Positions 18,634 through 45,395 of a stretch of 64,000 bases of DNA are shown here, one piece after another. The DNA is from Novosphingobium sp. Gsoil 351 (lineage in GTDB: Bacteria > Pseudomonadota > Alphaproteobacteria > Sphingomonadales > Sphingomonadaceae), in contig NZ_CP046120.1 of NCBI RefSeq assembly GCF_009707465.1, positions 1,207,501 to 1,271,500 of the forward strand, in the 5' to 3' direction. A program made the translations under genes and the position numbers. Below the pieces are notes generated by a model. The model had not been told where the DNA came from. It saw only the letters and a list, made by a program, of their open reading frames with translations, and made no database searches. The stretch's first letter is position 1, and each line of letters begins with the position of its first letter.

Positions 18634-18828
18634 CTAGCGCTTGACGCAGCGGAACCCGATATGGCTGGTCGAGGTATCAATCGTTTCCGGGTGACGTGCT
18701 GCCGGGCGGAAGCGTCGGCAGTAGTTCTCAGCACAGAGGTGCGAACCTCCATTGAGGACCTTACGGCCGAACTTCACATGGGACTGCGTTGGGTCGAAGC
18801 TCTCGCGCAGGACGTCATGTAACGACAA
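18634..18828 (-). pseudogene. C-terminal fragment of a formylglycine-generating enzyme
   Basis: About 50 residues match the end of the full FGE at 44418-45395: FGRKVLNGGSHLCAENYCRR here against IGRKVIKGGSHLCAENYCRR there, then RPAARHPETIDTSTSHIGFR in both. The two active-site cysteines are retained but the whole N-terminal fold is missing. The open frame starts at a TTG overlapping the DUF1501 stop. The DNA is clearly diverged from the full gene, so it is an old paralogous remnant and not a recent duplication. Function alone is unlikely. Confidence 0.8.
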
Positions 18829-19966
18829 GCCCTTCGCTCGCCTGACTGGTGCCTCCGGGAAACAGCGTTTTCATCGCCAGCGCCGGGTCTAGCGCGAAGT
18901 GTTGGGCCACTGCACCGGCGATCGTCGCATCCAGCGACGCGGTCGGCCTTAGGTCGCGGCCTTCGTAGAGGCTGGCGGTGGCGAGGCCGGGCCAGTCGGC
19001 TACGATCCGACCGCCCACCACCGTTCCTCCCAGCAGCATCGCCAGGCTCGCGGTGCCGTGATCGGTGCCGCCGGTGCCATTGACGGCCGCGGTGCGTCCG
19101 AATTCGGTCGCGACCACGACGAGCGTATCGGCCCAGGCCGGTCCCAGCCCCACCTGGAGGGCGCCGATCAGCGCGTCCAGCCCGACAAGCTGGGCGCGCA
19201 GCCGGGCAAGCTGGCCGGCGTGGGTGTCCCAGCCGCCGGTCTCGATCATCACCACGCGCGCGCCCTGATCGCCGGTCATCAGCGAGGCGGCAAGCGCGCC
19301 GGTCGCCGCCGCACCCCTGCCGCCGTCCGCGGCGAGGTCGCCGGCCATCGCCCGGGTCGCCATCGCCTCTGCCCACAGCGGGTGGAGCAGGGCGTCGCCT
19401 TGGTAGAGCTGGGTCACCCGGTTCAAAAGGTCGTCGCTCGCCCTGGGCAGGTTCGAAGGGGCGTAGCTCGCGACCTGCGCCGGGCCGCGCAGCGCGGCCG
19501 GGATGGTCGCCGAAATCGCCAGCGCGCGCGCCTCGCTCGCTGGGAGCAGCCCGACCAGCCGGTTGAGCCAGCCCGACTTGACGTCGTACGGCATGTTTCC
19601 GCCGGTCTCGAGCACGTTCTGCCCGTCGAAATGCGAACGATCGCGATAGGGCGATGCCGCCGCGTGGACGAACAGAGCCTGCTTCGCGCCATGGAGCTTG
19701 GCCACTTGCGCCAGGGCGGGATGCAGCGCGAACATGCCGCCCAGTTGCTGCGCGTCGGCGAAGTCGGCGGCGAGCGCGCCTCGCAGTCCGGCATAGGCGG
19801 GGTCGCCGGTGGGAGCGAGGGTGCCAAGCCCGTCTGCGGCGCCGCGCTGGATCACGAACACCAGTCGGCGCTGGGTCGAGGCGCGGGCGAGCGCGATCCG
19901 CGGCGCGAACAATAGACCGGTCCCGGCGAGCGAACCGCTGACAATCAGCGAGCGGCGATCTAGCAT
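18815..19966 (-). CDS. DUF1501 family exported protein
   Basis: A 383-residue protein with a signal sequence containing RRSLIVSGSLAGTGLL, Tat- or Sec-like. The body belongs to the alkaline-phosphatase/sulfatase-like DUF1501 group: VFVIQRGAADGL, RSHFDGQNVLETG, MIETGGWDTHAGQ and VVATEFGRTAAVNGTGGTDHG are characteristic metal-binding-like motifs. It is almost always paired with DUF1800, as here, four bases downstream. The pair is often found in polysaccharide loci, and its exact role is not known. Confidence 0.88.
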   Translation of the reverse strand: MLDRRSLIVSGSLAGTGLLFAPRIALARASTQRRLVFVIQRGAADGLGTLAPTGDPAYAGLRGALAADFADAQQLGGMFALHPALAQVAKLHGAKQALFVHAAASPYRDRSHFDGQNVLETGGNMPYDVKSGWLNRLVGLLPASEARALAISATIPAALRGPAQVASYAPSNLPRASDDLLNRVTQLYQGDALLHPLWAEAMATRAMAGDLAADGGRGAAATGALAASLMTGDQGARVVMIETGGWDTHAGQLARLRAQLVGLDALIGALQVGLGPAWADTLVVVATEFGRTAAVNGTGGTDHGTASLAMLLGGTVVGGRIVADWPGLATASLYEGRDLRPTASLDATIAGAVAQHFALDPALAMKTLFPGGTSQASEGLVVT

Positions 19967-19970
19967 CGGA

Positions 19971-21383
19971 TTATCTCCGCATCATTTCGGGCGAAGCGAG
20001 CAATAGCGCCAGCCCCTGCGCCGGGCTCTCGGCGCGCTGGATCGCGGTGCGCGTCGTCTCGGCTAGCGCGCCCGGAAACAGCTTCTCGGCAAGCGCGCGG
20101 GGATCGGCGGGGGTGGTCACCCTTCCGGCGATTCTGTCGGCCAACTCGACCCGGCGGACGAGCGCGTCGGGACCGGCCCAGCTCGCGGCAATGTCGTCCC
20201 ACCCCGCGGGCGAGCCGGGTTTCCACACCGCCTGTCCGAGCTGGACGAAAGCGCCCGCCGCTGCCCGATCCTCGAGATGCCGAACCCCCGCTGCGCGCAT
20301 CGCGGCGATGCCCCAGTCCCAAGGAGTGCGAAACTTTGCCGCGGTTTCGTCCCACCCCTCGGGTGCCGCTACCAGCGCGCGATAGACGGTAGGCAAATCG
20401 CCGCGTGAGGTGAGGAATGCCTGCTCGAGCCGCGCCACCAGCGTCGGGGGTGGATCATCGGCGGAGAAATGGCGGGCGAGCTTGGTCGCGATGTGCCGTG
20501 CGGTCGCCGGGTGCGCAGCCAGATCGGCGAGCACCGCCTGCGCTTGCTCTTCCCCGTCTTCACCATAGCGCTTGCCCATGATCGCCCGCGCACCGGGCTC
20601 GTGGAGCGGCGGGGCGTAGAGAAAGCCGCCCTGAGTCCCGCGCAGGAAAGGGAGGCGGCCGAGCCCGCCCACGGTCCACCCGGTCAGCGCGCGGGCAAAT
20701 TCGGTCACGTCGGCCTGGGTGTAGACCGTGCGCACCCCCAGCGTGTGCAGTTCCATGATCTCGCGTGCGAGATTTTCGTTGAGGCCGCGCTGGCGTCCAT
20801 TGCGTGCCGCGCGCTGGCCGAGCGGGCTGTCTGGGCCGATCGACTGCGCCTGATCGAGATAGAGCAGCATCGCCGGGTGGCGTTCGACGGCGCCGAGCAG
20901 ATCGGCGAAGCTGCCCAACACGTGCGGACGGATCGCCTCGAACTCGAGCGCGCCGGCCAGACCGATCGAGACCTGCTTGTCGACCGACACCGCGAAGTGG
21001 TTGGCCCAAAAATGGACCAGCCGCTCGACGAACGGTGTTTCGCTGACCAGCGCCACATTGGTGCGCGCGCCAACCGCCGCAAGATAGGCTTGGCGCAGTC
21101 CGCGGCCGAGACCCGCGCCGGGCATCGCCGTGGCGGTCCGCAATTCGCCGTTCATTGCGGGTTCGGGTGTGGCCGTTGCTGCGCGCCGTTCCTGCCGCGC
21201 CTCGCGCAGGTCGGCCAGCAACGCCACAAGCGCAGGGGTTCCGGGCAGCGCGGCAATCGGGGCGGGACGGATCGCAAAGCGAGCGAGCTGATCCGTCAGC
21301 CAGCGGTGCGGATCGGAAGGCGGCGCCTCATCGTCCCGTGCGCCGAGGCCAAATCGGTTCAGGGCAATCCTTGCAGCGCTCAT
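19971..21383 (-). CDS. DUF1800 family protein
   Basis: A 470-residue protein, mostly helical. It shows the family N-terminus (ALNRFGLGARDDEA), the central FVERLVHFWANHFAVS segment and LNENLAREIMELHTLGV, followed by DVTEFARALTGWTVGG. The start at 21383 is preferred over 21431 because it begins at the family N-terminus. It forms an operon pair with the DUF1501 gene and is the penultimate intact gene of the leftward carbohydrate arm. No enzymatic residue assignment is possible. Confidence 0.88.
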   Translation of the reverse strand: MSAARIALNRFGLGARDDEAPPSDPHRWLTDQLARFAIRPAPIAALPGTPALVALLADLREARQERRAATATPEPAMNGELRTATAMPGAGLGRGLRQAYLAAVGARTNVALVSETPFVERLVHFWANHFAVSVDKQVSIGLAGALEFEAIRPHVLGSFADLLGAVERHPAMLLYLDQAQSIGPDSPLGQRAARNGRQRGLNENLAREIMELHTLGVRTVYTQADVTEFARALTGWTVGGLGRLPFLRGTQGGFLYAPPLHEPGARAIMGKRYGEDGEEQAQAVLADLAAHPATARHIATKLARHFSADDPPPTLVARLEQAFLTSRGDLPTVYRALVAAPEGWDETAAKFRTPWDWGIAAMRAAGVRHLEDRAAAGAFVQLGQAVWKPGSPAGWDDIAASWAGPDALVRRVELADRIAGRVTTPADPRALAEKLFPGALAETTRTAIQRAESPAQGLALLLASPEMMRR

Positions 21384-21493
21384 CGGCCTCTCCGCCTGAT
21401 GTTGGCCGGACGGTGCAGGACGCTGGGACACAAGTCACGTCGCGAAATGTATCCGAATGTCACTTGAACGGTCTCTGAAATGCAGGTCGGACG

Positions 21494-23212
21494 TCAGCGG
21501 CCGATCGAGGGCGGAGGCCCGCCTGCACCGTCGGCTCCGATATTCGTAGGCGCATCTTGCTTGAGCTCGTTCCCGAAGAAGTCGGTGACCGGCGATTCGC
21601 TCACCTCTGCAAAGACGCTTTTGCCAGCGTCGGGAAACGGTGGGTGCGCGACAGCCGTTCCGGCGCCGATGGCAGCGCTCCCAGGCAGGAGACGGTATCC
21701 CTCGGGCGAAGTCGCTCCAGGATTGGCAATATTCGGGTTGGCCGAGACGACACCGGAACCCATGGCCAGGAGTTCTGCATTCGTCTTGCCGAAAAACAGG
21801 TTGTTGCGCAGGTCTAGCGGCGGCCCCCGCAGATCGAGCTTCAACTGTTCGCCGATCATGGCATGGGGCGATACGTAAAAGATGTTGTTCCAAACGTGAG
21901 CGTTCAATACGGAGAACGAGAGGTCGGGAAAGAGGCCGGACCTTATAAATACAGTATTATTATAGATATAGACTTCGTCGGACGGATTTTTGCGCGGCGA
22001 CCATGTGCTGATCCACAAGGTATTTCCGTCCTTTTCGCGCAGACCGTCATTTACACTGATATTATAGCGCCAAATGATATTGCGGTTATTCCCCAGGATC
22101 TCGACGAAGCCGCCTTCACTGTCTTCCGAGTAGTTGTATTGGTAGAGGACATTGAGATTGCCGAAGTCGACGTGCATCCCGTACGAGTCCTTGTATCCGC
22201 GGACATGGCGCGAACGATTGCGCTGCGCGACGATGTCCCGAGAATTGACCACCCAGGCTCCACTGCCGCGTCCCACCATCCGATCGGGTCTCGCGCTAGA
22301 GCCGCAATAGTCGAAATCGTTGTTCTCGATCAGCGCATCGCGCGCGCCGGCCAGTTGCACTGCCGAACCGCCCAGCTCGAAGAACTTGTTTTCGGCGATG
22401 ACGATGTCTCGGTTGAAGCCCGTCTCGGGATCGCGCGATTGGGCGTCCCCGGCTCCTCGACTGCGCGGACCGGCGTTGCTGATCTGCACCCCAAAACGCC
22501 CGGTATGCTCGATCCGGTTCCCCGAAATGCGGATATCCCGAAAGTACGACGGCGCCGCCCGCGTTTGCCTGTCGGTTGTCTCGAAGCGAATGCCGCTCAC
22601 GGTCACCCGGTTGAACTGATCCTCGGTGGTATGGGTGACGGCCTTCGCGAACACGTCGTGGACGTGGAGGTCGGTCATCCGGATATGCTCGAGCACCCCG
22701 CCGCCGTCGTTGACGAACAGAATGCCCGCAGCGGTGTCCTCCGCCTCGCCCGGGCGCGGGCGGTCGACGCTGTTGCTGATTTCGAGCCCGCGGATCTCGA
22801 TGTGGTGTTGATTGCGGACCAGAATTGCCGCCGCGTAGGCTCCCCCACTGCCGCCGGCGCCATCGATGCGGGGACGCGCACCAGCGCCGTACGTGGCGAC
22901 GATCAGCGGCTTACCGGGGTTACCCGACGACCGAATCTGCAACTGCCCGTTGAAAATATCTCCAGCCTTGAACAGGATCTGATCGCCAGCTTCAAAGGTC
23001 TGCGCGTTGACGCGCTCGAGCGAGGCCCAAGGGCACGATGGAGCGGTCGCAAGGCAATTGTCCCGACCTTCGGAACTGCTTACGTAGAAGACGCGGCCGT
23101 GCGGCGAGATGGGCGGATTGGCGGCAATCGCAGCGCCACACGGAAGGCACGCAAAACCGGTGGCGAGCGCGACCGCGAACGCGACCGCGCACGACATGAC
23201 TTCATGCCTCAT
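21494..23212 (-). CDS. secreted right-handed parallel beta-helix protein (candidate glycosidase or lyase)
   Basis: A 572-residue protein with a signal peptide (CAVAFAVALATGFACLPCGAA). From about residue 60 on, short repeating strands such as HHIEIRGLEISNS, YFRDIRISGNRIEHTGRFGV, DIVIAENKFFELGGSAVQL and ALIENNDFDYC build a parallel beta-helix, the fold of polysaccharide lyases and of GH28, GH82 and GH110 enzymes. In a sulfated-galactan locus a carrageenase- or galactosidase-type activity is possible, but no family can be assigned by eye. ATG 23212 overlaps the esterase stop by four bases. Confidence 0.82.
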   Translation of the reverse strand: MRHEVMSCAVAFAVALATGFACLPCGAAIAANPPISPHGRVFYVSSSEGRDNCLATAPSCPWASLERVNAQTFEAGDQILFKAGDIFNGQLQIRSSGNPGKPLIVATYGAGARPRIDGAGGSGGAYAAAILVRNQHHIEIRGLEISNSVDRPRPGEAEDTAAGILFVNDGGGVLEHIRMTDLHVHDVFAKAVTHTTEDQFNRVTVSGIRFETTDRQTRAAPSYFRDIRISGNRIEHTGRFGVQISNAGPRSRGAGDAQSRDPETGFNRDIVIAENKFFELGGSAVQLAGARDALIENNDFDYCGSSARPDRMVGRGSGAWVVNSRDIVAQRNRSRHVRGYKDSYGMHVDFGNLNVLYQYNYSEDSEGGFVEILGNNRNIIWRYNISVNDGLREKDGNTLWISTWSPRKNPSDEVYIYNNTVFIRSGLFPDLSFSVLNAHVWNNIFYVSPHAMIGEQLKLDLRGPPLDLRNNLFFGKTNAELLAMGSGVVSANPNIANPGATSPEGYRLLPGSAAIGAGTAVAHPPFPDAGKSVFAEVSESPVTDFFGNELKQDAPTNIGADGAGGPPPSIGR

Positions 23213-24729
23213 TTCGCAGATTTTCTCAGATCGGTCGAGAACGGTCCCAACGGCAGGCCGGAACTGTCGAATACGTTGCAGATCGGCGCGGCTGCGTAGC
23301 AATAACGGACAGTATCGGCCTTGACGCCGGCGGGCACGGCGACGCGGATTCGCTCACCGTCGAATTCCGCGTCGGCGAATTGGCAGACATTCTGACTGCT
23401 TTTCGTGCCACAGACCATGAAGGGTCCCGGCCTGCCCCATGAAGCGGAGATCAGTGGCTCCGAGGCCCCAGCAATCTCAATGAAGACCGAGCTGCCATCC
23501 AGCCGTGCGGCCCCGAGTTCCGGGCCCGTCTTCACCATCTCTCCATACACGAGCCTGCGCAAACCCATCGCGGCCCGGCGGGCAACGGGAAGCTTGAGCG
23601 GAGGGTGTATGTCGAGCCGCTCGCCGACATCGATCGTGACCACCAGAGCGGTCCGCGGGTCGTTTGCTACGACCTGGCGTTGGGCTTCGCGAACCTGTGC
23701 CCAGTTGTTGTCCTCCGCCATGGCGCTCAAGGGGCCGAAGCTGGCCAGTTGTACGATGACGAAGGGCAGATCGGCGTGGAATTGGCGGCGCCAACTCGCA
23801 AGCATGGCAGTGAGCTTTGCGCGATAGACCTGCGTCCCGTCGCGGCGGCCGGCGTTGTTCTCGCCCTGATACCAAAGCGCCCCGGCAAGGCCGTAGTCTG
23901 CGAGCGGCGCTATCATTGCGTTGTATAGGTTCGCATAACCGATGCGACCGCCCGATTCCGAAGGCGCGTTCCAGCGAGCGTCCAGCATGGCGCCATACCG
24001 AGCTTCTGCAGCTGCCGGGGCGGCGCGAAAGGCCTCCAGAATAGCGAGTTCGGGCTGCATGCCTCCCGCAGCCGCGAGACCGGTTGCAGGCGTCCACGAT
24101 TCAATCGCGGTTCCACCCCAGGAGGAATCGATCAGCCCCACCACGACCTTCTGCCGAGCGGCGATCTCACGTCCCGTCAGGAAGCAAACGGCAGAGAAAT
24201 CCTGGCCAGCCTCATCGGCGGTTTGCCAGGCAGGGGGCTTTAGGAAGGTGACGAGAGGCAGCCTCGCCTGGCTCTGCGGGACCGTCAGCAAGCGAAGCGC
24301 GGCATCGCCTGGCTGCTTGCGATCCTTGGGCTGTAGCGCGGTCTCGGACATGGCGAACTGCATGTTCGACTGGCCCGAGCACAGGAAGACGTCGCCAATC
24401 GCAATGTCCCTGGCCGCAATCGTCTCGCCGCCCGAGCGGGCGACGATCGCTTGGCCCGTCGCCGCCTGCTGGCGGGGGAAGAGCGCGCGCCATTCGCCCT
24501 GCCGGTCGGTCAGAACGGTCCGGGTCATCCCGGCGAATTCGATGGAGACCTTCGCTCCCGCGTGGGCGTGGCCACGGATCGCGATGTCCTGGCCGCGCTG
24601 GATGACCGCGTGGTCGGCGAACGGGGCATGCAGGACGAAGTCCTGACCTTGGGCCCGGGCGGGCGCCGCTGCCGAAGCAGTCCAAATCGCAACTGCGACT
24701 GTGGCGAGAATGAGCGGCGCGACCTTCAT
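23209..24729 (-). CDS. exported SGNH-type acetylesterase (sialate O-acetylesterase family)
   Basis: A 506-residue protein with a signal peptide ending ARAQG. The SGNH hydrolase signature is present: nucleophile block LCSGQSNMQF, the SSWGGTAIESW block and LWYQGENN, and a late DIHPPLK that may hold the catalytic Asp-x-x-His. The family removes O-acetyl groups from sugars. Here it would deacetylate or de-esterify the polysaccharide before or after sulfatase action. The start overlaps the sulfatase stop (ATGA), in a chain of such overlaps along the operon. Confidence 0.86.
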   Translation of the reverse strand: MKVAPLILATVAVAIWTASAAAPARAQGQDFVLHAPFADHAVIQRGQDIAIRGHAHAGAKVSIEFAGMTRTVLTDRQGEWRALFPRQQAATGQAIVARSGGETIAARDIAIGDVFLCSGQSNMQFAMSETALQPKDRKQPGDAALRLLTVPQSQARLPLVTFLKPPAWQTADEAGQDFSAVCFLTGREIAARQKVVVGLIDSSWGGTAIESWTPATGLAAAGGMQPELAILEAFRAAPAAAEARYGAMLDARWNAPSESGGRIGYANLYNAMIAPLADYGLAGALWYQGENNAGRRDGTQVYRAKLTAMLASWRRQFHADLPFVIVQLASFGPLSAMAEDNNWAQVREAQRQVVANDPRTALVVTIDVGERLDIHPPLKLPVARRAAMGLRRLVYGEMVKTGPELGAARLDGSSVFIEIAGASEPLISASWGRPGPFMVCGTKSSQNVCQFADAEFDGERIRVAVPAGVKADTVRYCYAAAPICNVFDSSGLPLGPFSTDLRKSAK

Positions 24730-26171
24730 TTTCCGAACAAAGCCTTTCTCTCGGCGATATTTTCTTTGGCGACGTGATCGGCGGAATATCGGCGCACGTC
24801 CTCCTGCGACCAGAAGGTTCCGGTGTGCCAGCGCGGATGCTCGAGGGTGCCTTCCCACGCAAACAGGCGCTTCATCATCGAGCGCACGCGTTCGGGATCG
24901 GCATCGGCAAGATTGCGCGTCTCGCCGATGTCGCCGACGAGATCGTAAAGCTCGGGCGGCCGATCCGGATACCGCAGCAGCTTCCACCGCCCGTCACGCA
25001 TCGCCGCCATGTTGTCGTAGCGCCAATACAGCGGGCGCGCGGCGAGCTTCGCCGGATCGGACAACAGCGAGAGGCCGTCGAGCGACTGCGGCACTTGCGC
25101 GCCGCTCAACTCAAGCGCCGTCGGCAGGACATCCAGCAGTGAGACGGGAGCCGTCACTTTCGTCCCTGCGCGTCCGCGATCGGGCAAGCGGACGATCAAC
25201 GGCACTCTGATACCGCCTTCCAGAAGCGTGCCCTTCGTGCCCCGCAGGGGCGTGTTGTAGGCACCGATCCCCACCCGGTCGCCTCCGTTGTCGTTGGCGA
25301 AGACGATCAGCGTGTTGCGATCCGCGCCGGTCCGCCGGAGTGTCTCGATCACCTTCCCCACCGCGCGGTCCAGCGCCCAGCTCATCGCCGCTAGCCGTCG
25401 CCGCTGCGGATCTTTGATCGCCGGGAACCGCGCTTCATCGGCAGCGAGCGCGTCCATCGGAGCATGGACCGCGTTGAACGCGAGATAGAGCAGGAAGGGC
25501 CGGTCCTTGCTCTCCTCGATGTCGCGTGCCGCCTCTTCGCCGAACTGGTCGGTCAGATAGCGGCCCGGCGTCTCAGGAGCACCGTCGCGCTGGATCGCCG
25601 CGGCCGCGATCCTGTTTGGAAAATAGCTGCTGCCGCCTCCCAGAAAACCATAGAAGTGATCGAACCCGCGGGTTCGCGGATCGAACTGCGGCTGTTCCCC
25701 CACATGCCATTTGCCGACGGCGTAGGTCGCGTAGCCGGCGGCACGGAACAGGTCGGCTGCGGTCCGCTCGCCGGTATCGAGGCCCATGAAGCGCGCCTCC
25801 ACGCCTTTGGGCGGAGCTTGGGTCAGGTTGAACTCGTACCCGAAGCGCTGGGTATAGCGGCCCGTCAGCAATCCGGCGCGCGATGGGCTGCAGAACGGCA
25901 TCGAGGCATAGGCATCCGAATAGACGATGCCTTGACGGGCCAGCGCGTCGATATTGGGGGTGCTGATTTCGCGGCTGCCCTGGAAGCCGAAGTCGCGATA
26001 GCCCGCGTCGTCGGCGAGGATGATCACGACATTGAGCCTTGCCGGTTTGGAGGACGCAGCCGCAGGCGTGTACGCCGACAAGAGAGCGGTCGTACCCAGG
26101 CAGGCGGCCGCCGCCAGGCGGAGGCTTCGGCGAAGTCGCGGTCCGCTAGTCCTCGCCGGCGAAGCGATCAT
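24726..26171 (-). CDS. exported sulfatase, Cys-type (S1 family), copy C
   Basis: A 481-residue arylsulfatase-like enzyme with signal sequence (RLAAAACLGTTALLSAYTPAAA). The active-site motif CSPSRAGLLTGR contains the Cys that FGE converts to formylglycine. Metal ligands are visible in ILADDAGYRDFG, the GKWHVG block and FANDNGGDR. It hydrolyses sulfate esters of carbohydrates in the periplasm or outside. Its stop overlaps the esterase start and its own start overlaps the end of sulfatase B. The target sulfate position is unknown. Confidence 0.92.
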   Translation of the reverse strand: MIASPARTSGPRLRRSLRLAAAACLGTTALLSAYTPAAASSKPARLNVVIILADDAGYRDFGFQGSREISTPNIDALARQGIVYSDAYASMPFCSPSRAGLLTGRYTQRFGYEFNLTQAPPKGVEARFMGLDTGERTAADLFRAAGYATYAVGKWHVGEQPQFDPRTRGFDHFYGFLGGGSSYFPNRIAAAAIQRDGAPETPGRYLTDQFGEEAARDIEESKDRPFLLYLAFNAVHAPMDALAADEARFPAIKDPQRRRLAAMSWALDRAVGKVIETLRRTGADRNTLIVFANDNGGDRVGIGAYNTPLRGTKGTLLEGGIRVPLIVRLPDRGRAGTKVTAPVSLLDVLPTALELSGAQVPQSLDGLSLLSDPAKLAARPLYWRYDNMAAMRDGRWKLLRYPDRPPELYDLVGDIGETRNLADADPERVRSMMKRLFAWEGTLEHPRWHTGTFWSQEDVRRYSADHVAKENIAERKALFGK

Positions 26172-27763: not shown

Positions 27764-32489
<4,726 letters not shown>

Positions 32490-32493
<4 letters not shown>

Positions 32494-33368
32494 CGAATTG
32501 CACCTTTGCGCTGGTAGACACGGACGTAATCGACCTCAAACCGGGACGGCAGCTGCGTGTCGCGGAGAGGCCCGCCTTTGGCGCTACCCAGCGCCAGGTT
32601 CATGATCAGGTATTGCGGCTTGTGGAACGGGTTGATGCCGCCCGGGGCTTCGCGGTTGCGGACTTTGGCGAGGTCCAGCCGATTGATCTCGCGACCGTCC
32701 AGACCCAGGCTGATCCTGCGTTCATCCCAATCCATCGTCCAGATGTGAAACTTCTCGTCCCAGCCGGGATTGCCGGCGAGTTCGGCGACGGGAATCCGGA
32801 CGCTGTTCCAGACCGGATGCCCGGGCACGCGCGAAGCCCAGGCGAAGTTCGCGAGAATGTGGCCCTGATAGAATTCCATCAGGTCGATCTCGCCGCAGGC
32901 GGGCCACCTTCCATCCGTGCCGACAAACCACAGCGCAGGCCACAGGCCCTGTTCCGCAACAAGTTTGGCTCGGATTTCGAAGCGTCCATAAGTCCAGCTT
33001 TGCAGCCCCTTGGTCGACAGGCTCGCCGAGGTGAAGTTGATCGACTTGCGCTCACGAAAGGGCGGCTTGAGCGTAGGCGATCCGAATTGCGGGTTCGGCT
33101 TGCGCTCGCGCCGCCCCTCGATGATCAGGCGCCCGTCCGCGACGCGTGCATTGTCTGGCTGATACCACTGCATCTCGCCGTTTCGCACGAACCCTCGTTC
33201 GAACGTCCACTTCGCCGGATCCGGCGCGCCCTCTCTGTCAAACTCGTCCGACCACACGAGCGCATAGCCCGGTGGACGCAGTAGCGGGTCAGGCCCTGTA
33301 TCTGCTGCCACGCCGGCCGCCAGGCACCCGAAGGCCGACAAGGTCACCACAGACGTCAAGTAACGCAA
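32490..33368 (-). CDS. GH16 family endo-acting glycosidase
   Basis: A beta-jelly-roll endoglycosidase with signal sequence. The catalytic block is GEIDLMEF (Glu nucleophile, Asp, Glu acid/base), preceded by WTYGRFEIRAK and GLWPALWF. GH16 enzymes cleave beta-1,3 or beta-1,4 glucans or galactans (laminarin, agar, porphyran, kappa-carrageenan). Substrate within the family cannot be fixed by eye, but every downstream gene points to galactose. The TTG at 33368 is chosen as start because AGGAG lies 6 bases before it; a GTG at 33416 is the alternative. Confidence 0.87.
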
Positions 33369-33431
33369 CTTCCGCTCCTGCGCAGGTTGTTGCGGGGCGC
33401 GGCTAGGAAAAGCCACGCCCCGCGCAATCGT

Positions 33432-36515: not shown

Positions 36516-36536
36516 TATCCTCTCCCCAACCCGACT

Positions 36537-36567
36537 CATATCTTAATGATACGATAAATAAGATATG
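36537..36567. promoter_or_regulatory. candidate operator: 9-bp inverted repeat before the TonB receptor
   Basis: CATATCTTA (36537-36545) and TAAGATATG (36559-36567) are perfect inverted arms 13 bases apart in an AT-rich patch that stands out from the GC-rich surroundings. It sits 21 bases from the receptor start on the leftward strand. The core TCTTAATGATACGATAAATA resembles an AT-rich stretch in the divergent dgoK-symporter gap. The FCD-type GntR regulator encoded at 42793 would bind such a palindrome; this pairing is inferred. Confidence 0.5.
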
Positions 36568-36652
36568 AGCTAGTTCGGCGAGGCTGTCAACGATGCTTTT
36601 GAAGATCAGACGAGCCTTGACCGGCGATCAGTCCGGCGGCCTCGGACAACAC

Positions 36653-38473: not shown

Positions 38474-39135
38474 CGCACAACCGCCTCGCTCTTGGGGACT
38501 CCAGCGGGCGTTATGTCCATCCACGCTTCGACCAGCCCCTCGGCATTCCTCGCGATTTCCTCGATAGACATGCTCGGACGGAACAGGGCGCCGCCGACAC
38601 CGATTCCCTCGGCGCCGGCTTCCAGCCACGAATGGAGCGAACTGGCGTCGGTGCCGCCCACCGCCCAGACGCTGGTCCCCGCAGGAAGCACTTCACCAAG
38701 CGCTTTGAGATAGCCGGGTCCCAGCGGTGCTGCGGGAAACAGCTTGAGACGGCGCGCGCCAGCCGCAACCGCGCTGAATGCGTCGGTTGGCGTAGCGATG
38801 CCGGGCATCGCTTCCATGCCGCATTCGATCGCCTGGGCAATCACCGCAGGATTGGTATTCGGGGAGACGACGAGCTTGCCGCCCGCTTGGGCGACGTGTT
38901 CGACTGCGGCAATGTCCAGGACTGTGCCAGCGCCGCATACGGCTCGATCCCCGACGGCCTCCACCAACCGGGAGATCGACAGAAGCGGGTCGGGCGAATT
39001 CAACGGGACCTCGATGATCCTGATACCGGCCTCGACGAGTGCCTCTCCAACAGTGGCTGCCGTGTTCGGAGTCACGCCTCGCAAAATAGCGACCAGAGGC
39101 GGAGCTCCGCCATTCAGCAGGTCCGTGATCGTCAT
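38470..39135 (-). CDS. dgoA: 2-dehydro-3-deoxy-6-phosphogalactonate aldolase
   Basis: A 221-residue class I aldolase of the KDPG/KDPGal family, splitting KDPGal into pyruvate and glyceraldehyde 3-phosphate. It shows ILRGVTPNTA, IIEVPLNSPDP (the KDPGal-type version of the active-site Glu loop), GAGTVLD and the Schiff-base lysine in RRLKLFPA. ATG 39135 overlaps the kinase stop by four bases. With the kinase upstream and dehydratase downstream it completes the lower half of galactose breakdown. Confidence 0.93.
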   Translation of the reverse strand: MTITDLLNGGAPPLVAILRGVTPNTAATVGEALVEAGIRIIEVPLNSPDPLLSISRLVEAVGDRAVCGAGTVLDIAAVEHVAQAGGKLVVSPNTNPAVIAQAIECGMEAMPGIATPTDAFSAVAAGARRLKLFPAAPLGPGYLKALGEVLPAGTSVWAVGGTDASSLHSWLEAGAEGIGVGGALFRPSMSIEEIARNAEGLVEAWMDITPAGVPKSEAVVR

Positions 39136-40028
39136 TTCGCTTGTTCCTCGCAAATTTTGGCGAGCCGACCCAGGCCCGCGATCACACAGGCGTCGCCATC
39201 GTAAAGGGTCATGGTGAGGCCCAGTTGCTTGCCGGCCTGAAGGTACAATGCCGACAGCGAAGGGTCGCCGATCACCGTCAAGGTCGTTGCGGCTTCTCCG
39301 ATCAGCGCGCGCGCCTCGCCAAGCTCGCCGCCGATCAGCAATCCGGACAGGAAGCCGAGGCCCCACCCGTGGGTGCGACCGTCGACCAGCTGGGCTGCGC
39401 GGGCGGCGAAGAGTCCTGCCAGCGAATGGCGCAGTCCCTGGGTCACCCCGGCTTCGAACCCGGCATCGACATCGCCTGGATCCGCGCCGGCACGGACCAG
39501 GGTGGAATGGTCGCGCAGCAGCGCGAACAGCTCGCCCGTCGGGAAGGTGTGAAAGCTGCGTATCGTCCCGCCAGCGGTGACGACCCACTTGCTGTGCGTC
39601 CCGGGCAACACCATCACATGTTCGCCGCAGGCAAGCCTGGGCTCGATGACCATCGCCCCGAACACCTGAGTTTCCTCCCCGCGCATGACGTCAGGCAGGT
39701 AAGCAAAATTCGCCCCCTTCAACCCCGTCGCCACGCGAACCGGATAGGCAAATCCCTCGACGATCCCGACCTGGGCGCTCCAATCGTCGAAGCCGACGGG
39801 ACACTCGACGTAGCCCAAGTCGATCAGACCGTTGCGCGAGCCGGCCATCCCACACAGCAAGACACCGCTCTCTAGGGCTGGTTCGGTCCACGGCTCAAGC
39901 ATGGCCGCCAACGTCTGGGAGGGCGAGGCGCGCAACTGCCCGATTCCCGGACCGACCAGCTTGTCGGCGTCCGCCCTCGCCGATCGGAACATTCGCAGGC
40001 GCGTCGTTCCCCAGTCGCCCACGATCAT
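39132..40028 (-). CDS. dgoK: 2-dehydro-3-deoxygalactonokinase
   Basis: A 298-residue sugar-acid kinase phosphorylating 2-keto-3-deoxygalactonate at C6. Family motifs: the N-terminal phosphate loop GDWGTTRLRMF, CGMAGSRNG, PDVMRGEETQVFGA, VLPGTHSKWV and FHTFPTGELFALL, which are distinctive for DgoK. It is the first gene of the leftward arm and shares a 136-base divergent promoter region with the symporter. Confidence 0.93.
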   Translation of the reverse strand: MIVGDWGTTRLRMFRSARADADKLVGPGIGQLRASPSQTLAAMLEPWTEPALESGVLLCGMAGSRNGLIDLGYVECPVGFDDWSAQVGIVEGFAYPVRVATGLKGANFAYLPDVMRGEETQVFGAMVIEPRLACGEHVMVLPGTHSKWVVTAGGTIRSFHTFPTGELFALLRDHSTLVRAGADPGDVDAGFEAGVTQGLRHSLAGLFAARAAQLVDGRTHGWGLGFLSGLLIGGELGEARALIGEAATTLTVIGDPSLSALYLQAGKQLGLTMTLYDGDACVIAGLGRLAKICEEQAK

Positions 40029-40090
40029 CGTGCCCGCCTCCCAGAATATTTCCCGCTCGAATCATGCCAACGGGGTATCGTACTTTTCCC

Positions 40091-40112
40091 TTCTAATAAT
40101 AATATAAATATG
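40091..40112. promoter_or_regulatory. AT-rich motif in the divergent dgoK / symporter promoter
   Basis: TTCTAATAATAATATAAATA at 40091-40110 is the most AT-rich point of the gap between the two divergent arms. It aligns with TCTTAATGATACGATAAATA in front of the TonB receptor at about 15 of 20 positions. It could hold a promoter -10 element, a common operator, or both. The symporter has a strong GGGGGAGGA ribosome site further right. Confidence 0.4.
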
Positions 40113-40164
40113 CTTCAAGAGCAGAGATGCCGACGTCGTCCGATCGGCAGGGGGAGGACCTAGG

Positions 40165-41766
40165 ATGCCACTTCAACCCATCGACGTCGCGGTCATCGCC
40201 GCTTACGCGATCTTCATTTTCGGCCTCGCGCAATGGGTTAGCCGCGACAAGCTGGGAGCGGGCCCGAAAAACACCACCGACTACTTCCTCGCTTCGCGCA
40301 ATCTGCCTTGGTGGGCGATCGGTGCGTCGCTGATTGCCGCGAACATCTCAGCCGAACAGATCGTGGGAATGTCGGGGTCGGGCTACGCGATCGGACTTGC
40401 CATTGCGTCCTATGAATGGATGGCCGCGGCGACCTTGCTGATCGTCGGAAAATTCTTCCTCCCGATTTTCCTCCGCAATGAGATCTACACGATGCCGCAG
40501 TTTCTCGAGCGGCGTTATGGCCCTTCGATCCGGACGCTCATGGCCGTCTTTTGGCTGGCACTTTACGTCTTCGTGAATCTGACATCGATTATCTGGTTGG
40601 GCTCGATCGCGGTCACGAAGGTGGCCGGAGTCGATCAGGATTTCGCCCTCGTCATCCTCGGGTCGTTCGCTCTGCTCTATCAAATACGTGGTGGGCTAAA
40701 GGCGGTCGCACTGACGGACATCGTGCAGGTTACGCTGCTCGTGCTCGGCGGGCTGATTATCGCCGGGCTCACCCTTTCCGAACTGGGCGAAGGCGCCGGC
40801 ATAGTAGCCGGCTGGGTTCGCCTGACTTCCGCAGCCCCCGATCACTTTCACATGATTCTCGAGCCTGGCAATCCTCACTATATGGACCTGCCGGGGCTTT
40901 CGGTCCTGATGGGCGGCATGTGGATCGCAAACCTGAGTTACTGGGGGTTCAACCAGTATATCATCCAGCGAGCGCTCGCGGCCAAATCCTTGGATGAGGC
41001 GCAGCGCGGCATCCTGTTCGCAGCGTTCCTGAAACTGTTGATGCCGATCATCATCGTGCTTCCGGGGATCGCCGCGGTCATTCTTGCACCTGACCTGGCT
41101 AAGCCCGACGAGGCCTATCCAACGATGATGCGGCTGCTGCCCCCGGGTCTCCTCGGCCTTGTTTTCGCCGCGCTCATTGCCGCGATAATCGCTTCGACCG
41201 CGTCGAAGATCAACTCGATCGCAACGATCTTCACGCTCGACGTTTATGCGAAGGCGCGCAAATTGAAGACTCACGCGGAAGATCAAACCGTCGGTCATGG
41301 CGCCAACGAACGCCACCTCGTTATGGTTGGACGGATTGCCGCGACAAGCGCCATCCTCATCGCGATCTTCACCGCACGGCCGCTGCTGGGATCAAGCGAA
41401 CAGGCGTTTCAGTTCATCCAGGAGTTTACCGGCTTTTTCACCCCCGGGATTACCGTGATCTTCCTTTTGGGCCTGTTCTGGAAGCGAGCCAACGAAACGG
41501 GCGCGATTGCCGGCGCGATTGCTTCCGTCGCCTTGTCCTGGCTGTTCAAGGTATGGCTGTCGGGTGTGCCGTTTCTTGACAGGATGGGCATCGTATTCCT
41601 CCTCTCGTTCGGCTTGGCGGTGGTGGCTTCGCTTCTCACGGCGCCGTCCGCACAGCGAGACACGATCGAAGCCGTTGGGGTGAGCTTTGTTACCCGCCGG
41701 GCTTTCAACGTGGGGGGCGTCGCGGTTCTGCTGATCCTCGTTGCCCTCTATGCTACGTTTTGGTGA
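40165..41766 (+). CDS. SglT-like sodium/galactose symporter (SSS family)
   Basis: A 533-residue membrane protein with about 14 helices. It strongly resembles the Vibrio Na+/galactose transporter vSGLT: NTTDYFLASRNLPWWAIGAS, LIAANISAEQIVGMSGSGYA, SYEWMAAATLLIVGKFFLPI and YVFVNLTSIIWLGSIA. It would bring galactose released in the periplasm across the inner membrane. First gene of the rightward arm; the next gene starts one base after its stop. Confidence 0.92.
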   Translation: MPLQPIDVAVIAAYAIFIFGLAQWVSRDKLGAGPKNTTDYFLASRNLPWWAIGASLIAANISAEQIVGMSGSGYAIGLAIASYEWMAAATLLIVGKFFLPIFLRNEIYTMPQFLERRYGPSIRTLMAVFWLALYVFVNLTSIIWLGSIAVTKVAGVDQDFALVILGSFALLYQIRGGLKAVALTDIVQVTLLVLGGLIIAGLTLSELGEGAGIVAGWVRLTSAAPDHFHMILEPGNPHYMDLPGLSVLMGGMWIANLSYWGFNQYIIQRALAAKSLDEAQRGILFAAFLKLLMPIIIVLPGIAAVILAPDLAKPDEAYPTMMRLLPPGLLGLVFAALIAAIIASTASKINSIATIFTLDVYAKARKLKTHAEDQTVGHGANERHLVMVGRIAATSAILIAIFTARPLLGSSEQAFQFIQEFTGFFTPGITVIFLLGLFWKRANETGAIAGAIASVALSWLFKVWLSGVPFLDRMGIVFLLSFGLAVVASLLTAPSAQRDTIEAVGVSFVTRRAFNVGGVAVLLILVALYATFW

Positions 41767-41767
41767 C

Positions 41768-42715
41768 ATGGTGGACGGGCCAAGAACTCCCGCGCCAATC
41801 GCCCTCGGCCTGATTGGCGTGGGCAAGATTGCGCGCGATCAACATCTTCCGGCCATTGCCCAGGAACGCTCCTTCAGACTGGTTGCCATGGCAAGCCGGG
41901 ACGCGGCCGATCAGCAGGACGTGATCTACTCTTCGCTGACCGAGCTTCTTGCGGGCACCCCCGAGGTCACCGCGATTTCGCTTGCTTCACCACCAGTTGG
42001 TCGCGCGGATCTCGCCCGCGAAGCGTTGTTGGCGGGGAAGCATGTCATGCTGGAAAAGCCACCCTGCGCATCGCTCGGCGAAGCCCATGCCTTGGAAGCC
42101 TTGGCCAGGCAGAAGGCGTTGACGTTGTTCGCGACGTGGCATTCGCGGGAGGCCGCCGGGGTTGCCGGCGCGCGAGCTTGGCTGGCGGACAAGCGGATTA
42201 CGGGCGGACAGATTGCCTGGCGCGAGGATGTTCGGGTGTGGCACCCGGGTCAGAACTGGATTTTCGCCCCCGGCGGCATGGGAGTCTTCGATCCGGGTAT
42301 CAATGCGTTGTCGATCCTGACCGAGATCTTGCCCGGCGCGCTTACTTTGCGTTCAGCAGACCTCGAGGTGCCTGAAAATCTGCACGGCCCAATCCGCGCG
42401 CGGATCGAAATGATCCATGACTTTGATGTGCCGATGGCCGGTCAGTTTGATTTTCTCTACGAGGGCGTCCCCCATTGGACGATCGATATCCACACAGATC
42501 AGGGTTCATTGAGACTTGACCGGGGTGGCTCACGCCTGACGATCGCCGAGGCGGAGGTCGATTGTGGCGAAGATCGCGAATATCGCCGGCTTTATAGGCG
42601 TTTCGCGAGGATGGTCCTCGGCGGAACGAGCGAGGTCGATCTGCGACCGCTGGTCCTGGTCGCTGACGCAATGCTTGTCGGTGACCGCAACAAAGCTCCT
42701 CCCTTCCATTTCTAA
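41768..42715 (+). CDS. Gfo/Idh/MocA family oxidoreductase, probably D-galactose 1-dehydrogenase
   Basis: A 315-residue NAD(P)-dependent dehydrogenase: Rossmann motif GLIGVGKIARDQHLPAI, then VAMASRDA, and the catalytic EKPPCASLGEA with its conserved Lys. Size, the WHSREA segment and context match the Pseudomonas/Caulobacter type D-galactose dehydrogenase that makes galactono-lactone. ATG 41768 is chosen over 41741, which overlaps the symporter. Other pentose or hexose substrates remain possible. Confidence 0.85.
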   Translation: MVDGPRTPAPIALGLIGVGKIARDQHLPAIAQERSFRLVAMASRDAADQQDVIYSSLTELLAGTPEVTAISLASPPVGRADLAREALLAGKHVMLEKPPCASLGEAHALEALARQKALTLFATWHSREAAGVAGARAWLADKRITGGQIAWREDVRVWHPGQNWIFAPGGMGVFDPGINALSILTEILPGALTLRSADLEVPENLHGPIRARIEMIHDFDVPMAGQFDFLYEGVPHWTIDIHTDQGSLRLDRGGSRLTIAEAEVDCGEDREYRRLYRRFARMVLGGTSEVDLRPLVLVADAMLVGDRNKAPPFHF

Positions 42716-42792
42716 GATAAATGAGTTGATTGTTCTGGCAGGATCAGCAGGATGACAGCGGTTGCCGATTTCGAGGATTTCAGAGCATTTTC

Positions 42793-43524
42793 ATGATCGG
42801 CGCAGGACAACCGCGGCACCAACTAGGCCGCAATCTCACTTATGGGATGCTCGATGCGCTAGGCAGGGCCATCGTCACCGGTGCTTACGACAACGCTCCG
42901 TTTCCGACCGAAGCCGAACTTGCCAAGCAACAGGGCGTCAGCCGGTCGGTTACGCGTGAGGCGGTCAAGATGCTTACCGCCAAGGGCTTACTGAGTGCGC
43001 GTCCTCGCCAAGGCACGATCGTGCAACCCATCAGTTCATGGAACTTGTTTGATCCTGATGTCCTGAGCTGGCTGCTCGATCGCCGCTTTTCGATCGACCT
43101 CTTACGCGAATTCAACCAGCTCAGGATTGCGATTGAGCCGGAGGCCGCAGCACTGGCCGCAACGGTTGCCGGAGACAGCGACAAGGCCAAGATCCGCAAA
43201 GGCTTAGACCGGATGATCGCGGCCGAAGCTGGCGACGACGACCCACTTGAAAGCGACATCGCATTTCATGTGGCAATCCTCCAGGCGTCGAACAATGCGT
43301 TCTTCGCGCAATTCCGCGATGTGGTTGGCGCCGCGCTGCGCACCTCGATTCGCTTTACCAACCGGGTCGTGGGCCGAACTGCCAGCGTTCCTGATCACGC
43401 CGCGGTGTTCCAGGCGATTAGCGCAGGCGATCCCCATCGGGCGCGCGCCGCCATGCGCCACCTAATTTCCGACGTGCTTACTTTGATCGGAAACTCAGAC
43501 CCCGTCCCAGATCCAGCAATCTGA
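42793..43524 (+). CDS. FadR-type GntR transcriptional regulator
   Basis: A 243-residue regulator. N-terminal winged helix (PTEAELAKQQGVSRSVTREA, then VKMLTAKGLLSARPRQGT) and a C-terminal FCD ligand domain with FNQLRIAIEPEAAALAA and, later, the metal-site histidines in DIAFHVAILQAS and DHAAVF. FCD regulators respond to sugar acids, so a galactonate-pathway intermediate is the likely effector. ATG 42793 gives the family N-terminus. It probably controls both arms of the locus through AT-rich palindromes. Confidence 0.88.
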   Translation: MIGAGQPRHQLGRNLTYGMLDALGRAIVTGAYDNAPFPTEAELAKQQGVSRSVTREAVKMLTAKGLLSARPRQGTIVQPISSWNLFDPDVLSWLLDRRFSIDLLREFNQLRIAIEPEAAALAATVAGDSDKAKIRKGLDRMIAAEAGDDDPLESDIAFHVAILQASNNAFFAQFRDVVGAALRTSIRFTNRVVGRTASVPDHAAVFQAISAGDPHRARAAMRHLISDVLTLIGNSDPVPDPAI

Positions 43525-43545
43525 CGAATCCCGGCAAGATCTTTC

Positions 43546-44436
43546 GTGACAAGCGATCCATTGTGTCTCGAACCCGCAGGCCAAGTTTCCGTCGGCAACC
43601 GGTTGGGCGAGGGAATCGTGTGGGATTCACTCTCGGAATCCTTCCTCTGGACCGACATTCACAAGCGAAAGTTCTATCGGCTGCAGTGGCCGACAATGAG
43701 GTTGGAACAGTTCTCTTTGCCGCACAGGCTCGGTTCTTTCGGGTTGACACGACTACCCAACCTGATTCTAGCCGCCTTCGAGGCTGGTTTTGCCTCGTAC
43801 GACTTCGAGCGCGAAACGTGCGAATGGATCTGCCGCCCGGTGTTGCCGCCTGGCGTGCGCTTCAACGATGGCAGGGTCGACCGGGCCGGCCGGTTCGTTG
43901 CCGGGACGATGGTCGAGGACCCGGTGGCGGCGGGAAGCCCAACGGCCGGCGCCCTCTTTCGCCTCGAGACATCTGGTCGCGTGACCGAGCTCCTTTCCGG
44001 TATCGGTATCACCAACTCCCTTTGCTGGTCGCCCGACGGATCAATTATGTATCACGCGGACAGCACGGTCGGAGCGCTCAACGCATACGACTATGGGACT
44101 CAGTGTGATTGGCGATGCGAACTATCCAGAGCGCACGCGCCATCCACGCCAGACGGCGCAACAGTCGATGCACAAGGGCGGATTTGGGTGGCAATGTGGG
44201 GTGGTGCTCGGGTGGCGGTCTTTGCCGCAGACGGCACGCTGCTCGACCAGCTTCCGGTGCCCGTCACGCAGCCGACATGCGTTGCGCTCGGTGGGCAGGA
44301 ACTCGACGTGCTGGCGGTCACGAGTGCCCATGATGGCCTCAATTCTGTCTCTCTGGCCAAGGAGACGGCGGCAGGGGACGTGTTCTTCTACCGCACGGCG
44401 ATCCAAGGCTTGGAAGAATGCCGGGTGACCGTGTGA
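43546..44436 (+). CDS. SMP-30/gluconolactonase family lactonase, probably galactonolactonase
   Basis: A 296-residue six-bladed propeller lactonase. Metal-site residues are visible in LGEGIVWDSL (Glu), GVRFNDGRVDRAGRF (Asn), GITNSLCWSPDG (Asn) and the catalytic Asp in STPDGATVDAQGR. It hydrolyses galactono-lactone to galactonate, between the dehydrogenase and the dehydratase. The start is GTG 43546. It sits between the regulator gene and FGE in the rightward arm. Confidence 0.88.
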   Translation: MTSDPLCLEPAGQVSVGNRLGEGIVWDSLSESFLWTDIHKRKFYRLQWPTMRLEQFSLPHRLGSFGLTRLPNLILAAFEAGFASYDFERETCEWICRPVLPPGVRFNDGRVDRAGRFVAGTMVEDPVAAGSPTAGALFRLETSGRVTELLSGIGITNSLCWSPDGSIMYHADSTVGALNAYDYGTQCDWRCELSRAHAPSTPDGATVDAQGRIWVAMWGGARVAVFAADGTLLDQLPVPVTQPTCVALGGQELDVLAVTSAHDGLNSVSLAKETAAGDVFFYRTAIQGLEECRVTV

Positions 44437-45395
44437 CGCTGCCTGGCGGTTCGCACATCGCGGATGGTGGCGAGGTGATTGCGTTGCCCGGCGGCACGTT
44501 CCTGATGGGGTCCGACCACTTCTATCCCGAGGAAGCTCCGCGCCGCCGGGTGAGCGTCGACCCGTTCCGGATCGATGCCTGCCCCGTAACGAATGCCGAG
44601 TTCGCAAGGTTCGTCAACGCCACGGGCCATGTGACCTTGGCCGAGACTGCGCCTGACGGGAAAGACTACCCGGGCATGATACCGGAGATGGCGCGCGCCG
44701 GATCGCTGGTCTTCCACAAGACTGCGGGGCCCGTGCCCATTGACGAGATCCATCGCTGGTGGCGCTTCGAATTCGGTGCGGACTGGCGCCATCCATACGG
44801 CCCCGACAGCAGTCTCGCCGGGTTGGACGACCATCCGGTAGTCCACGTCGCATGGCAGGATGCCGCCGCGTACGCGCTATGGGCCGGAAAGGCTCTGCCG
44901 ACCGAAGCCGAGTGGGAATATGCGGCACGCGGGGGCCTCGAAGATGCGGACTACGCCTGGGGTGACGAACTGGCACCCGGCGGTGCCATGCTCGCCAATT
45001 ACTGGCAGGGCCTCTTCCCCTTCGCCAACCAATGCCTGGATGGCTGGGAACGAACCTCTCCGGTGCGATCGTTCCCCGCCAATCCCTACGGGCTATACGA
45101 CATGATCGGCAACACCTGGGAATGGACGGACGACTGGTATTCAGAGCCTGTCGCAATCCGCAAAAGTCAGCCCGGCACCTGCTGCACGCTCAAGAATCCG
45201 CGAGGGGGAACCCGGAAACGAAGCGTCGACCCACTTCACCCGGAGATCAAGATCGGCCGCAAGGTCATCAAGGGCGGTTCGCATCTTTGCGCTGAAAATT
45301 ACTGCCGCCGCTACAGACCTGCGGCGCGCCATCCTGAAACAATCGACACATCGACCAGCCACATCGGCTTTCGCTGCGTCCTGCGGGGACTTTGA
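44418..45395 (+). CDS. formylglycine-generating enzyme (sulfatase activation)
   Basis: A 325-residue FGE-sulfatase domain protein. The fold signature is seen in GGTFLMGSDHFYPEEAPRR, CPVTNAEFARFV, LPTEAEWEYAARGG and NTWEWTDDWYS. The two copper-binding cysteines are in GGSHLCAENYCRRYRPAARH. It oxidises the Cys of CxPSR motifs in the three sulfatases of the locus, acting in the cytoplasm before export. The start overlaps the lactonase end by 19 bases, so it belongs to the rightward operon and its level is tied to galactose catabolism. Confidence 0.92.
   Translation: MPGDRVTLPGGSHIADGGEVIALPGGTFLMGSDHFYPEEAPRRRVSVDPFRIDACPVTNAEFARFVNATGHVTLAETAPDGKDYPGMIPEMARAGSLVFHKTAGPVPIDEIHRWWRFEFGADWRHPYGPDSSLAGLDDHPVVHVAWQDAAAYALWAGKALPTEAEWEYAARGGLEDADYAWGDELAPGGAMLANYWQGLFPFANQCLDGWERTSPVRSFPANPYGLYDMIGNTWEWTDDWYSEPVAIRKSQPGTCCTLKNPRGGTRKRSVDPLHPEIKIGRKVIKGGSHLCAENYCRRYRPAARHPETIDTSTSHIGFRCVLRGL

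Follow-up and report, generated by a model that had tools for sequence, protein, structure and literature searches.

A candidate sulfated-galactan utilization locus joined to a galactose catabolic cassette in Novosphingobium sp. Gsoil 351

Comparison with described galactan utilization loci

The closest described systems are the carrageenan polysaccharide utilization loci (CarPULs) of Pseudoalteromonas strains PS47 and U2A and of P. carrageenovora, which combine S1_19 and S1_15 sulfatases, TonB receptors, GH16 and GH2 enzymes, a sodium/sugar symporter, De Ley–Doudoroff genes and GntR regulators (PMC6923384, PMC12549532). Annotated plasmid regions of P. carrageenovora also show this type of gene set. 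Here, we describe a related cluster in a 64,000-nucleotide stretch of the Novosphingobium sp. Gsoil 351 genome (contig NZ_CP046120.1, positions 1,207,501 to 1,271,500), hereafter the window, from which coordinates are counted unless stated otherwise; the genome is a single contig of 3.82 Mb. The single 16S match of the genome shares 94.6% identity with Novosphingobium and 93–94% with Sphingobium and Sphingomonas records among the best eight rows from plasmid-borne rRNA copies, in keeping with a sphingomonad; one further record matches at 99% or more, presumably over a short stretch. The interpretation we prefer, and to which we give about an even chance of being correct, is that the cluster is a utilization locus for a D-galactan that is sulfated at O-4 and O-6 and lacks 3,6-anhydrogalactose, most likely with a β-1,3 backbone as in Codium. 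We report enzyme families, catalytic motifs, gene order and nearest structures, and from these we infer the polymer and its linkage, the location and order of the steps and their regulation.

Because the Pseudoalteromonas CarPULs already join S1_19 and S1_15 sulfatases with De Ley–Doudoroff genes, the architecture itself is known. The cluster differs from known systems in its enzyme set, in its IlvD-type dehydratase, in the coupling of the sulfatase activator FGE (formylglycine-generating enzyme) to galactose catabolism and in its probable substrate. Compared with the CarPULs, it has a GH16_3-like enzyme in place of carrageenases, and this enzyme does not qualify as a GH16_17-type carrageenase; S1_19-type galactose-4-sulfatases are present (best chains 6prm and 9hh3). 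No gene for 3,6-anhydrogalactose catabolism is seen among the Pfam and NCBIfam hits of the cluster, the part of the genome searched for such genes. An IlvD-type dehydratase is found where mandelate-racemase-type enzymes are listed for P. carrageenovora, and the cluster adds a beta-helix/esterase/DUF1501/DUF1800 tail and an FGE gene inside the galactose operon. The carrageenan regulon of Zobellia galactanivorans (Bacteroidota) shares an S1_19-type sulfatase and the release of galactose by a GH2 enzyme, but it includes the DauA–D anhydrogalactose genes (PMC5698469) and GH127/129 enzymes, neither of which appears among the cluster hits. The sequence-only reading had described such systems as well known in Bacteroidota and unusual in a sphingomonad; that contrast is softened by Pseudoalteromonas, a member of the Pseudomonadota whose CarPULs carry De Ley–Doudoroff genes (PMC6923384).

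The cluster is organized as two divergent runs, one on the minus strand (18,815–40,028) and one on the plus strand (40,165–45,395), separated by an intergenic region at 40,029–40,164 that was delimited from open reading frame (ORF) coordinates and the sequence. In order of transcription, the minus run encodes a 2-keto-3-deoxy-galactonate (KDGal) kinase, a 2-keto-3-deoxy-6-phosphogalactonate (KDPGal) aldolase, an IlvD/Edd dehydratase, a TonB receptor, GH16, GH2, sulfatases C, B and A, a SASA esterase, a beta-helix protein, DUF1800 and DUF1501, and the plus run encodes an SSF symporter, a Gfo/Idh dehydrogenase, a GntR/FCD regulator, an SMP-30 lactonase and FGE. Family calls rest on Pfam curated cut-offs, with the stricter NCBIfam equivalog cut-offs used alongside. 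All families named by the sequence-only reading were recovered at the places it gave and above the Pfam cut-offs; scores fall short of several NCBIfam equivalog cut-offs, the symporter for instance giving 333 of 401 bits. Export-like N-terminal stretches are visible by eye in the three sulfatases, GH2, GH16, the esterase, the beta-helix protein and the TonB receptor.

Polymer-active enzymes and the galactose cassette

The Cys-type motif C-x-P-S-R is present in each of the three sulfatases, and they match the S1 signatures C-x-P-S-R and G-[YV]-x-[ST]..GK (patterns from PMC5066984), with F preceding the Cys of sulfatase A where the pattern permits LIVMST. S1 subfamilies were assigned by nearest solved structure. 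Sulfatase A (24,726–26,171, minus strand; PF00884, 183 bits; C-S-P-S-R) is S1_19-like, of galactose-4-sulfate type, with the exo-4S-κ-carrageenan sulfatase 6prm as best chain (E 3.4e-116); 6prm is the S1_19 enzyme acting on terminal G4S of κ-carrageenan (PMC6923384; the PDB code of S1_19B appears in PMC12549532). Sulfatase B (26,168–27,780, minus strand, start approximate; PS00523 motif) is S1_15-like, of galactose-6-sulfate type. Eight PDB chains match it over nearly its full length at E ≤2.4e-132, led by 9bas (E 4e-173, residues 316–795 of ORF 26,168–28,588), which is S1_15A, the exo-galactose-6-sulfate sulfohydrolase of a λ-carrageenan cascade (PMC12549532). Sulfatase C (27,838–29,264, minus strand, ends approximate; C-A-P-S-R) is broken near 28,590, with its N-terminal half in ORF 28,338–30,017 and its C-terminal half in ORF 26,168–28,588; both halves are S1_19-like, the first closest to 9hh3 and the second to 6prm. 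Aligned over 332 columns, sulfatases A and C are 66% identical in DNA. The three distinct sulfatases of the sequence-only reading are indeed three Cys-type enzymes, but they comprise two S1_19-like paralogs and one S1_15-like protein. They group with carrageenan enzymes; the same reading had named a grouping with host-glycan or steroid sulfatases as evidence against itself. Pfam gives seven S1 sulfatase matches in the genome, which correspond to six genes because the halves of sulfatase C match separately; half of these genes lie in the cluster.

The GH16 gene (32,490–33,416, minus strand) and the GH2 gene (29,261–32,493, minus strand) give the sole GH16 and the sole GH2 TIM-barrel matches of the genome. 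The predicted GH16 endo-hydrolase has the catalytic motif EIDLME, which fits the E-x-D-x-x-E of GH16 subfamily 3, and reads WPALWFVGTDGRWPA, in agreement with the WPA ... WXX ... WPX of that subfamily; its middle motif is WFV, where M or L is given as usual (PMC6827312). With the NCBIfam κ-carrageenase model it scores 23 bits, where the cut-off is 350, and its 34 PDB sequence hits include none named as a carrageenase, agarase or porphyranase; judged by sequence, it is not a carrageenase. A grouping of GH16 with laminarinases, which the sequence-only reading had regarded as unfavorable, is half borne out: GH16_3-type enzymes are closest both by sequence and by model, yet the GH16_3-like clade to which the enzyme belongs stands apart from laminarinase-like rows. 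Subfamily 3 has a conserved His on the strand beside the catalytic motif; there, members of the clade have ILANxAW where many laminarinase-like rows carry His, in an alignment of uncertain register. The top structural match of the GH16 model is the O-glycanase entry 6t2n, which we take to be the Amuc_0724 chain; rows from VIA-align and Foldseek were used as ranks, and absence from them was not read as exclusion. The LacZ-type GH2 β-galactosidase is broken near 31,390 into an N-terminal half (31,327–32,493) and a C-terminal half (29,261–31,540) in different frames, which match positions 3–340 and 340–1004, respectively, of NF052611.

The FGE gene (44,418–45,395, plus strand; PF03781, 265 bits with a cut-off of 23) overlaps the lactonase frame by 19 bases and therefore lies inside that operon, in line with the earlier placement of FGE within sugar catabolism. 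A Cys pair in its C-terminal GGSHLCAENYC stretch is presumably the catalytic pair. Beyond DUF1501, at the opposite end of the cluster, a C-terminal FGE remnant, a pseudogene fragment (18,640–18,804, minus strand; PF03781 positions 201–255, 35 bits), shows 77% amino-acid identity to residues 267–323 of the intact FGE and 79.5% DNA identity over 132 bases. Elsewhere in the genome (G000:C1 3,335,475–3,351,954), four genes resembling FGE or sulfatase-modifying factors lie within 17 kb, a region in which the genome-wide Pfam scan finds no sulfatase.

The galactose route is strongly supported at the sequence level. All five De Ley–Doudoroff enzymes are found together, and the full pathway from galactose to pyruvate of the sequence-only reading holds. 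On the minus strand are the KDGal kinase (39,132–40,028; PF05035, 237 bits), the KDPGal aldolase (38,470–39,130, start approximate; NF006600, 253 bits with a cut-off of 207) and the IlvD/Edd-type D-galactonate dehydratase (36,653–38,450, start approximate; PF00920, 348 bits), whose best chain is 7m3k, ‘Galactonate dehydratase’, at 978 bits. The plus strand carries the SSF sodium/sugar symporter (40,165–41,766; PF00474, 223 bits; TIGR00813, 335 bits), a Gfo/Idh/MocA galactose (arabinose) 1-dehydrogenase (41,741–42,715; PF01408, 61 bits) with 6jnj, an L-arabinose 1-dehydrogenase (316 bits), and 4ew6, a D-galactose-1-dehydrogenase (280 bits), as best chains, the GntR/FCD regulator (42,730–43,524; PF07729 and PF00392) and the SMP-30/gluconolactonase-type lactonase (43,546–44,436; PF08450, 217 bits). 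A search of the divergent junction at 40,029–40,164 for an operator gave no convincing candidate.

The TonB-dependent receptor (33,432–36,539, minus strand; TIGR01782, 563 bits) precedes GH16 in the minus run. A perfect 11-base inverted repeat, CTCATATCTTA / TAAGATATGAG with a 13-base spacer (36,535–36,569), overlaps the start of the receptor gene and is a possible operator or hairpin. The right-handed beta-helix protein (longest ORF 21,494–23,302, minus strand; PF13229, 38 bits) is distantly similar to GH136 lacto-N-biosidases (7v6m, 94 bits; 6kqs, 92 bits); its true start is probably downstream of the longest-ORF start, and its export-like hydrophobic stretch lies near the N terminus. The SASA/SGNH-type carbohydrate acetylesterase (longest ORF 23,209–24,987, minus strand; PF03629, 79 bits; best chain 9ega, a sialate O-acetylesterase) probably starts near 24.73 kb. 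The minus run ends with a DUF1800 protein (19,971–21,431, minus strand; PF08811, 401 bits) and a DUF1501 protein (18,815–19,966, minus strand; PF07394, 122 bits).

Substrate, alternative readings and gene integrity

The presence of 4- and 6-sulfatases, a β-galactosidase, a GH16 that is not a recognizable carrageenase and D-galactose catabolism, together with the lack of anhydrogalactose genes in the cluster, underlies our preference for a 4- and 6-sulfated D-galactan devoid of anhydro sugars, and the set of parts points to a galactan other than agar or carrageenan. Such polymers exist: 3-linked β-D-galactans sulfated at C-4 and C-6 are made by the green algae Codium and Acetabularia (PMC7550628). 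This is a fit and not a proof, with carrageenan precursors and sulfated arabinogalactans also compatible. In the pathway we envisage, GH16 would cut the chain outside the outer membrane and the TonB receptor would import the oligosaccharides. In the periplasm, 4-sulfate would be removed by the two S1_19-like enzymes and 6-sulfate by the S1_15-like enzyme, acetyl groups might be removed by the SASA esterase, a side linkage would probably be cut by the beta-helix protein and GH2 would free galactose from the desulfated end. Galactose would then enter through the SSF symporter and be converted by the dehydrogenase, lactonase, IlvD-type dehydratase, kinase and aldolase to pyruvate and glyceraldehyde-3-phosphate. 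FGE, coupled to the lactonase gene, would activate the sulfatases in the cytoplasm, and the GntR regulator probably responds to an intermediate of the pathway and exerts its control at the divergent junction.

Several observations weigh against this interpretation. The β-1,3-glucanases rank just 1.4 Z behind 6t2n and lead the GH16 sequence hits, making β-1,3-glucan a possible GH16 substrate. Among 17 other members of the GH16 clade, 8 have DUF2264, GH88, BNR_4 or GH115 neighbors and 9 do not, and the neighbor queries were drawn from loci of this same clade, which favors matches there; because the neighbors of its Bacteroidota relatives are absent here, the substrate may differ from theirs. The single-sequence model of the beta-helix protein, built without homologs, reaches a predicted local distance difference test (pLDDT) score of only 36. 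The nearest solved relatives of both the S1_19-like and the S1_15-like enzymes belong to carrageenan loci, and sulfatase A has among its best plasmid matches P. carrageenovora and a Phocaeicola plasmid, where the hit lies beside agarases. The polymer could thus be a red-algal galactan (κ-, ι- or λ-carrageenan, their precursors, agar or porphyran) with GH16 as a divergent galactanase of that route. We consider this unlikely: GH16 is remote from the κ-carrageenase model and has no named carrageenase, agarase or porphyranase among its PDB sequence hits, and the cluster hits, to which the search was confined, include neither an anhydrogalactose gene nor GH82, GH110, GH127/129, GH150 or GH167. The link of a sulfated galactan to galactose catabolism in the sequence-only reading keeps the backing of the sulfatase placement and the De Ley–Doudoroff enzymes, but GH16 lends none to agar, porphyran or carrageenan. 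A host-type sulfated glycan, such as a mucin O-glycan or keratan sulfate, would account for the O-glycanase 6t2n as top structural match, the GH136-type similarity of the beta-helix protein and the sialate O-acetylesterase chains of the esterase, and the literature available to us lists GalNAc-6-sulfate as a further substrate of S1_15 family members. We think it very improbable. Neither GH20, GH33 or GH29/95 enzymes nor genes of N-acetylhexosamine catabolism are among the cluster hits, and the catabolic genes present suit galactose; that same literature links S1_19 to carrageenan, and the beta-helix protein resembles GH136 weakly (94 bits).

A different challenge comes from the frame breaks in GH2 and sulfatase C, which the sequence-only reading overlooked in calling the locus complete; the gene families are all present, but two of the genes are interrupted in this assembly. 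The locus could be a decaying relic, with real pseudogenes for GH2 and one of the sulfatases and an edge deletion marked by the FGE remnant, and the insertion sequence (IS) elements and integrase module nearby would suit such a history. As a control, a codon-usage frame scan was run on the window and on eight 20-kb stretches of the same genome, giving 7 candidate same-strand frame switches in the window and 15 in the controls, some of which are surely false. Pfam was applied to five of these 15: one shows an unambiguous split domain (POR_N 7–115 / 117–171, in a conserved 2-oxoacid:acceptor oxidoreductase), a second has PBP_dimer and transpeptidase domains in two frames and is probably a split FtsI-type protein, and the remaining three gave no clear call. 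Since similar breaks occur in the control stretches, one of them inside a conserved oxidoreductase domain, assembly indels are likelier than decay as the source of the GH2 and sulfatase C breaks, and the assembly may carry many uncorrected indels. Each broken gene also has a single break, with two open frames that jointly span the domain models, and the catalytic motifs of the sulfatases, GH16 and FGE are intact. We regard decay as improbable.

Distribution and origin of the two modules

The galactose cassette appears ordinary for the family. Symporter relatives at E ≤1e-150 occur in 47 of 297 other sampled family genomes, and most close symporter loci have cassette genes adjoining: of 27 loci at ≥~69% identity, 22 carry one or more galactose-cassette genes within 1.5 kb, 20 of them two or more, and the other 5 lack any. 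Within this span none of the 27 loci has a match to a sulfatase, GH16, GH2, FGE or the receptor, genes that at the window's locus too lie beyond its reach. The polymer-active genes, by comparison of sequences, seem rare in the family, as matches to the TonB receptor, beta-helix protein and GH16 are absent, weak or few among relatives. At E 1e-100, none of the 297 genomes gives a match to the TonB receptor, and the beta-helix protein has no close relatives in the family or class, with weak partial matches in 3 of 297 family and 2 of 336 class genomes; these absences are bounded by the number of candidates scored per genome (2 for the receptor, up to 4 for the beta-helix protein, 5 for sulfatase A). 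GH16 matches occur in 19 of 60 relatives, the best at 40% over 254 residues. The relatives search covered the best 80 of 163 relatives, possibly leaving out records very near the window's genome. Sulfatase A finds matches at E 1e-60 in 48 of the 297 genomes (best 47%), and S1_19-like sulfatases are thus not in themselves uncommon in the family. Of the 50 plasmids with a match to the beta-helix protein, 17 carry distant relatives aligned over at least 80% of its length, the closest (36%) in Flammeovirga, and no galactan genes are annotated in the plasmid region that was read.

The most similar arrangement in the family is found in genome G248 (C2, ~226–272 kb), where the same divergent cassette, aldolase–IlvD facing SSF–lactonase–GntR, lies in a locus that also holds FGE, several GH2 genes, a TonB receptor and S1_19-like sulfatases, so that the sphingomonad version is less unusual than the sequence-only reading proposed. 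It differs in carrying GH95, PhoD-like and GH109-like genes and two tandem LacZ-like GH2 genes, and in the stretches read it has no GH16 or beta-helix match and no gene whose best sulfatase match is the S1_15-like query. This locus suggests a modular build, with a resident galactose cassette and an exchangeable polymer module. A same-genus genome, G278, had appeared to be another carrier (S1_19-like hits, together with an S1_15-like match at 31% and an FGE at 71%), but this was not supported: ten ORFs of its stretch L142–L143 include no glycosidase by Pfam, and the domains found are a TonB receptor, alkylsulfatase, DUF3604, aminotransferase, sulfotransferase, ABC, acetyl-CoA hydrolase and acyl-CoA dehydrogenase. 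The closest GH16 relatives (43–51% identity in the alignment) come from Bacteroidota loci with DUF2264, GH88, BNR_4 or GH115; those neighbors are absent here, and the window's sulfatases have no relative there. When Bacteroidota and Planctomycetes–Verrucomicrobia–Chlamydiae (PVC) GH16 loci were searched for linked orthologs, GH16 alone matched in L009–L022, L024 and L026, and L023 gave one weak lactonase match (41 bits).

The mobile elements near the cluster (IS110, IS1595, a tyrosine integrase with primase and a Mutator-type transposase), the FGE remnant and the GH16 tree together make acquisition of the polymer module likely. A composite-transposon origin was rejected, the nearest flanking IS elements being of different families (IS110, 8,816–10,048; IS1595, 45,836–46,780). 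Adjoining the cluster at 49,198–53,876, a tyrosine integrase with an Arm-binding domain and a Prim-Pol/DUF5906 primase appear to represent an integrative element or phage satellite. Further along the window, a single ORF (61,400–62,398) combines a DSP/PTP-type phosphatase domain with the N-terminal part of an ADP-ribosylglycohydrolase domain.

A more far-reaching form of our interpretation, which we hold tentatively and with more doubt than conviction, is that the locus encodes a route for a green-algal-type 4-/6-sulfated β-1,3-D-galactan, in which GH16 would found a group of sulfate-tolerant endo-β-1,3-galactanases, the beta-helix protein would be a new galactan-active enzyme and a polymer module of PVC/Bacteroidota origin would have been plugged into the galactose cassette of the family. 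Red-algal galactan breakdown has already been mapped in detail, and among the titles and opening lines of abstracts retrieved on Codium-type and sulfated (arabino)galactans we found no utilization locus for green-algal β-galactan sulfates. If our interpretation is correct, the cluster would offer a small, ready-to-test set of enzymes for green-algal β-galactan sulfate, and it would show how a sphingomonad acquires a new food source when a foreign polymer module is joined to its resident galactose cassette.

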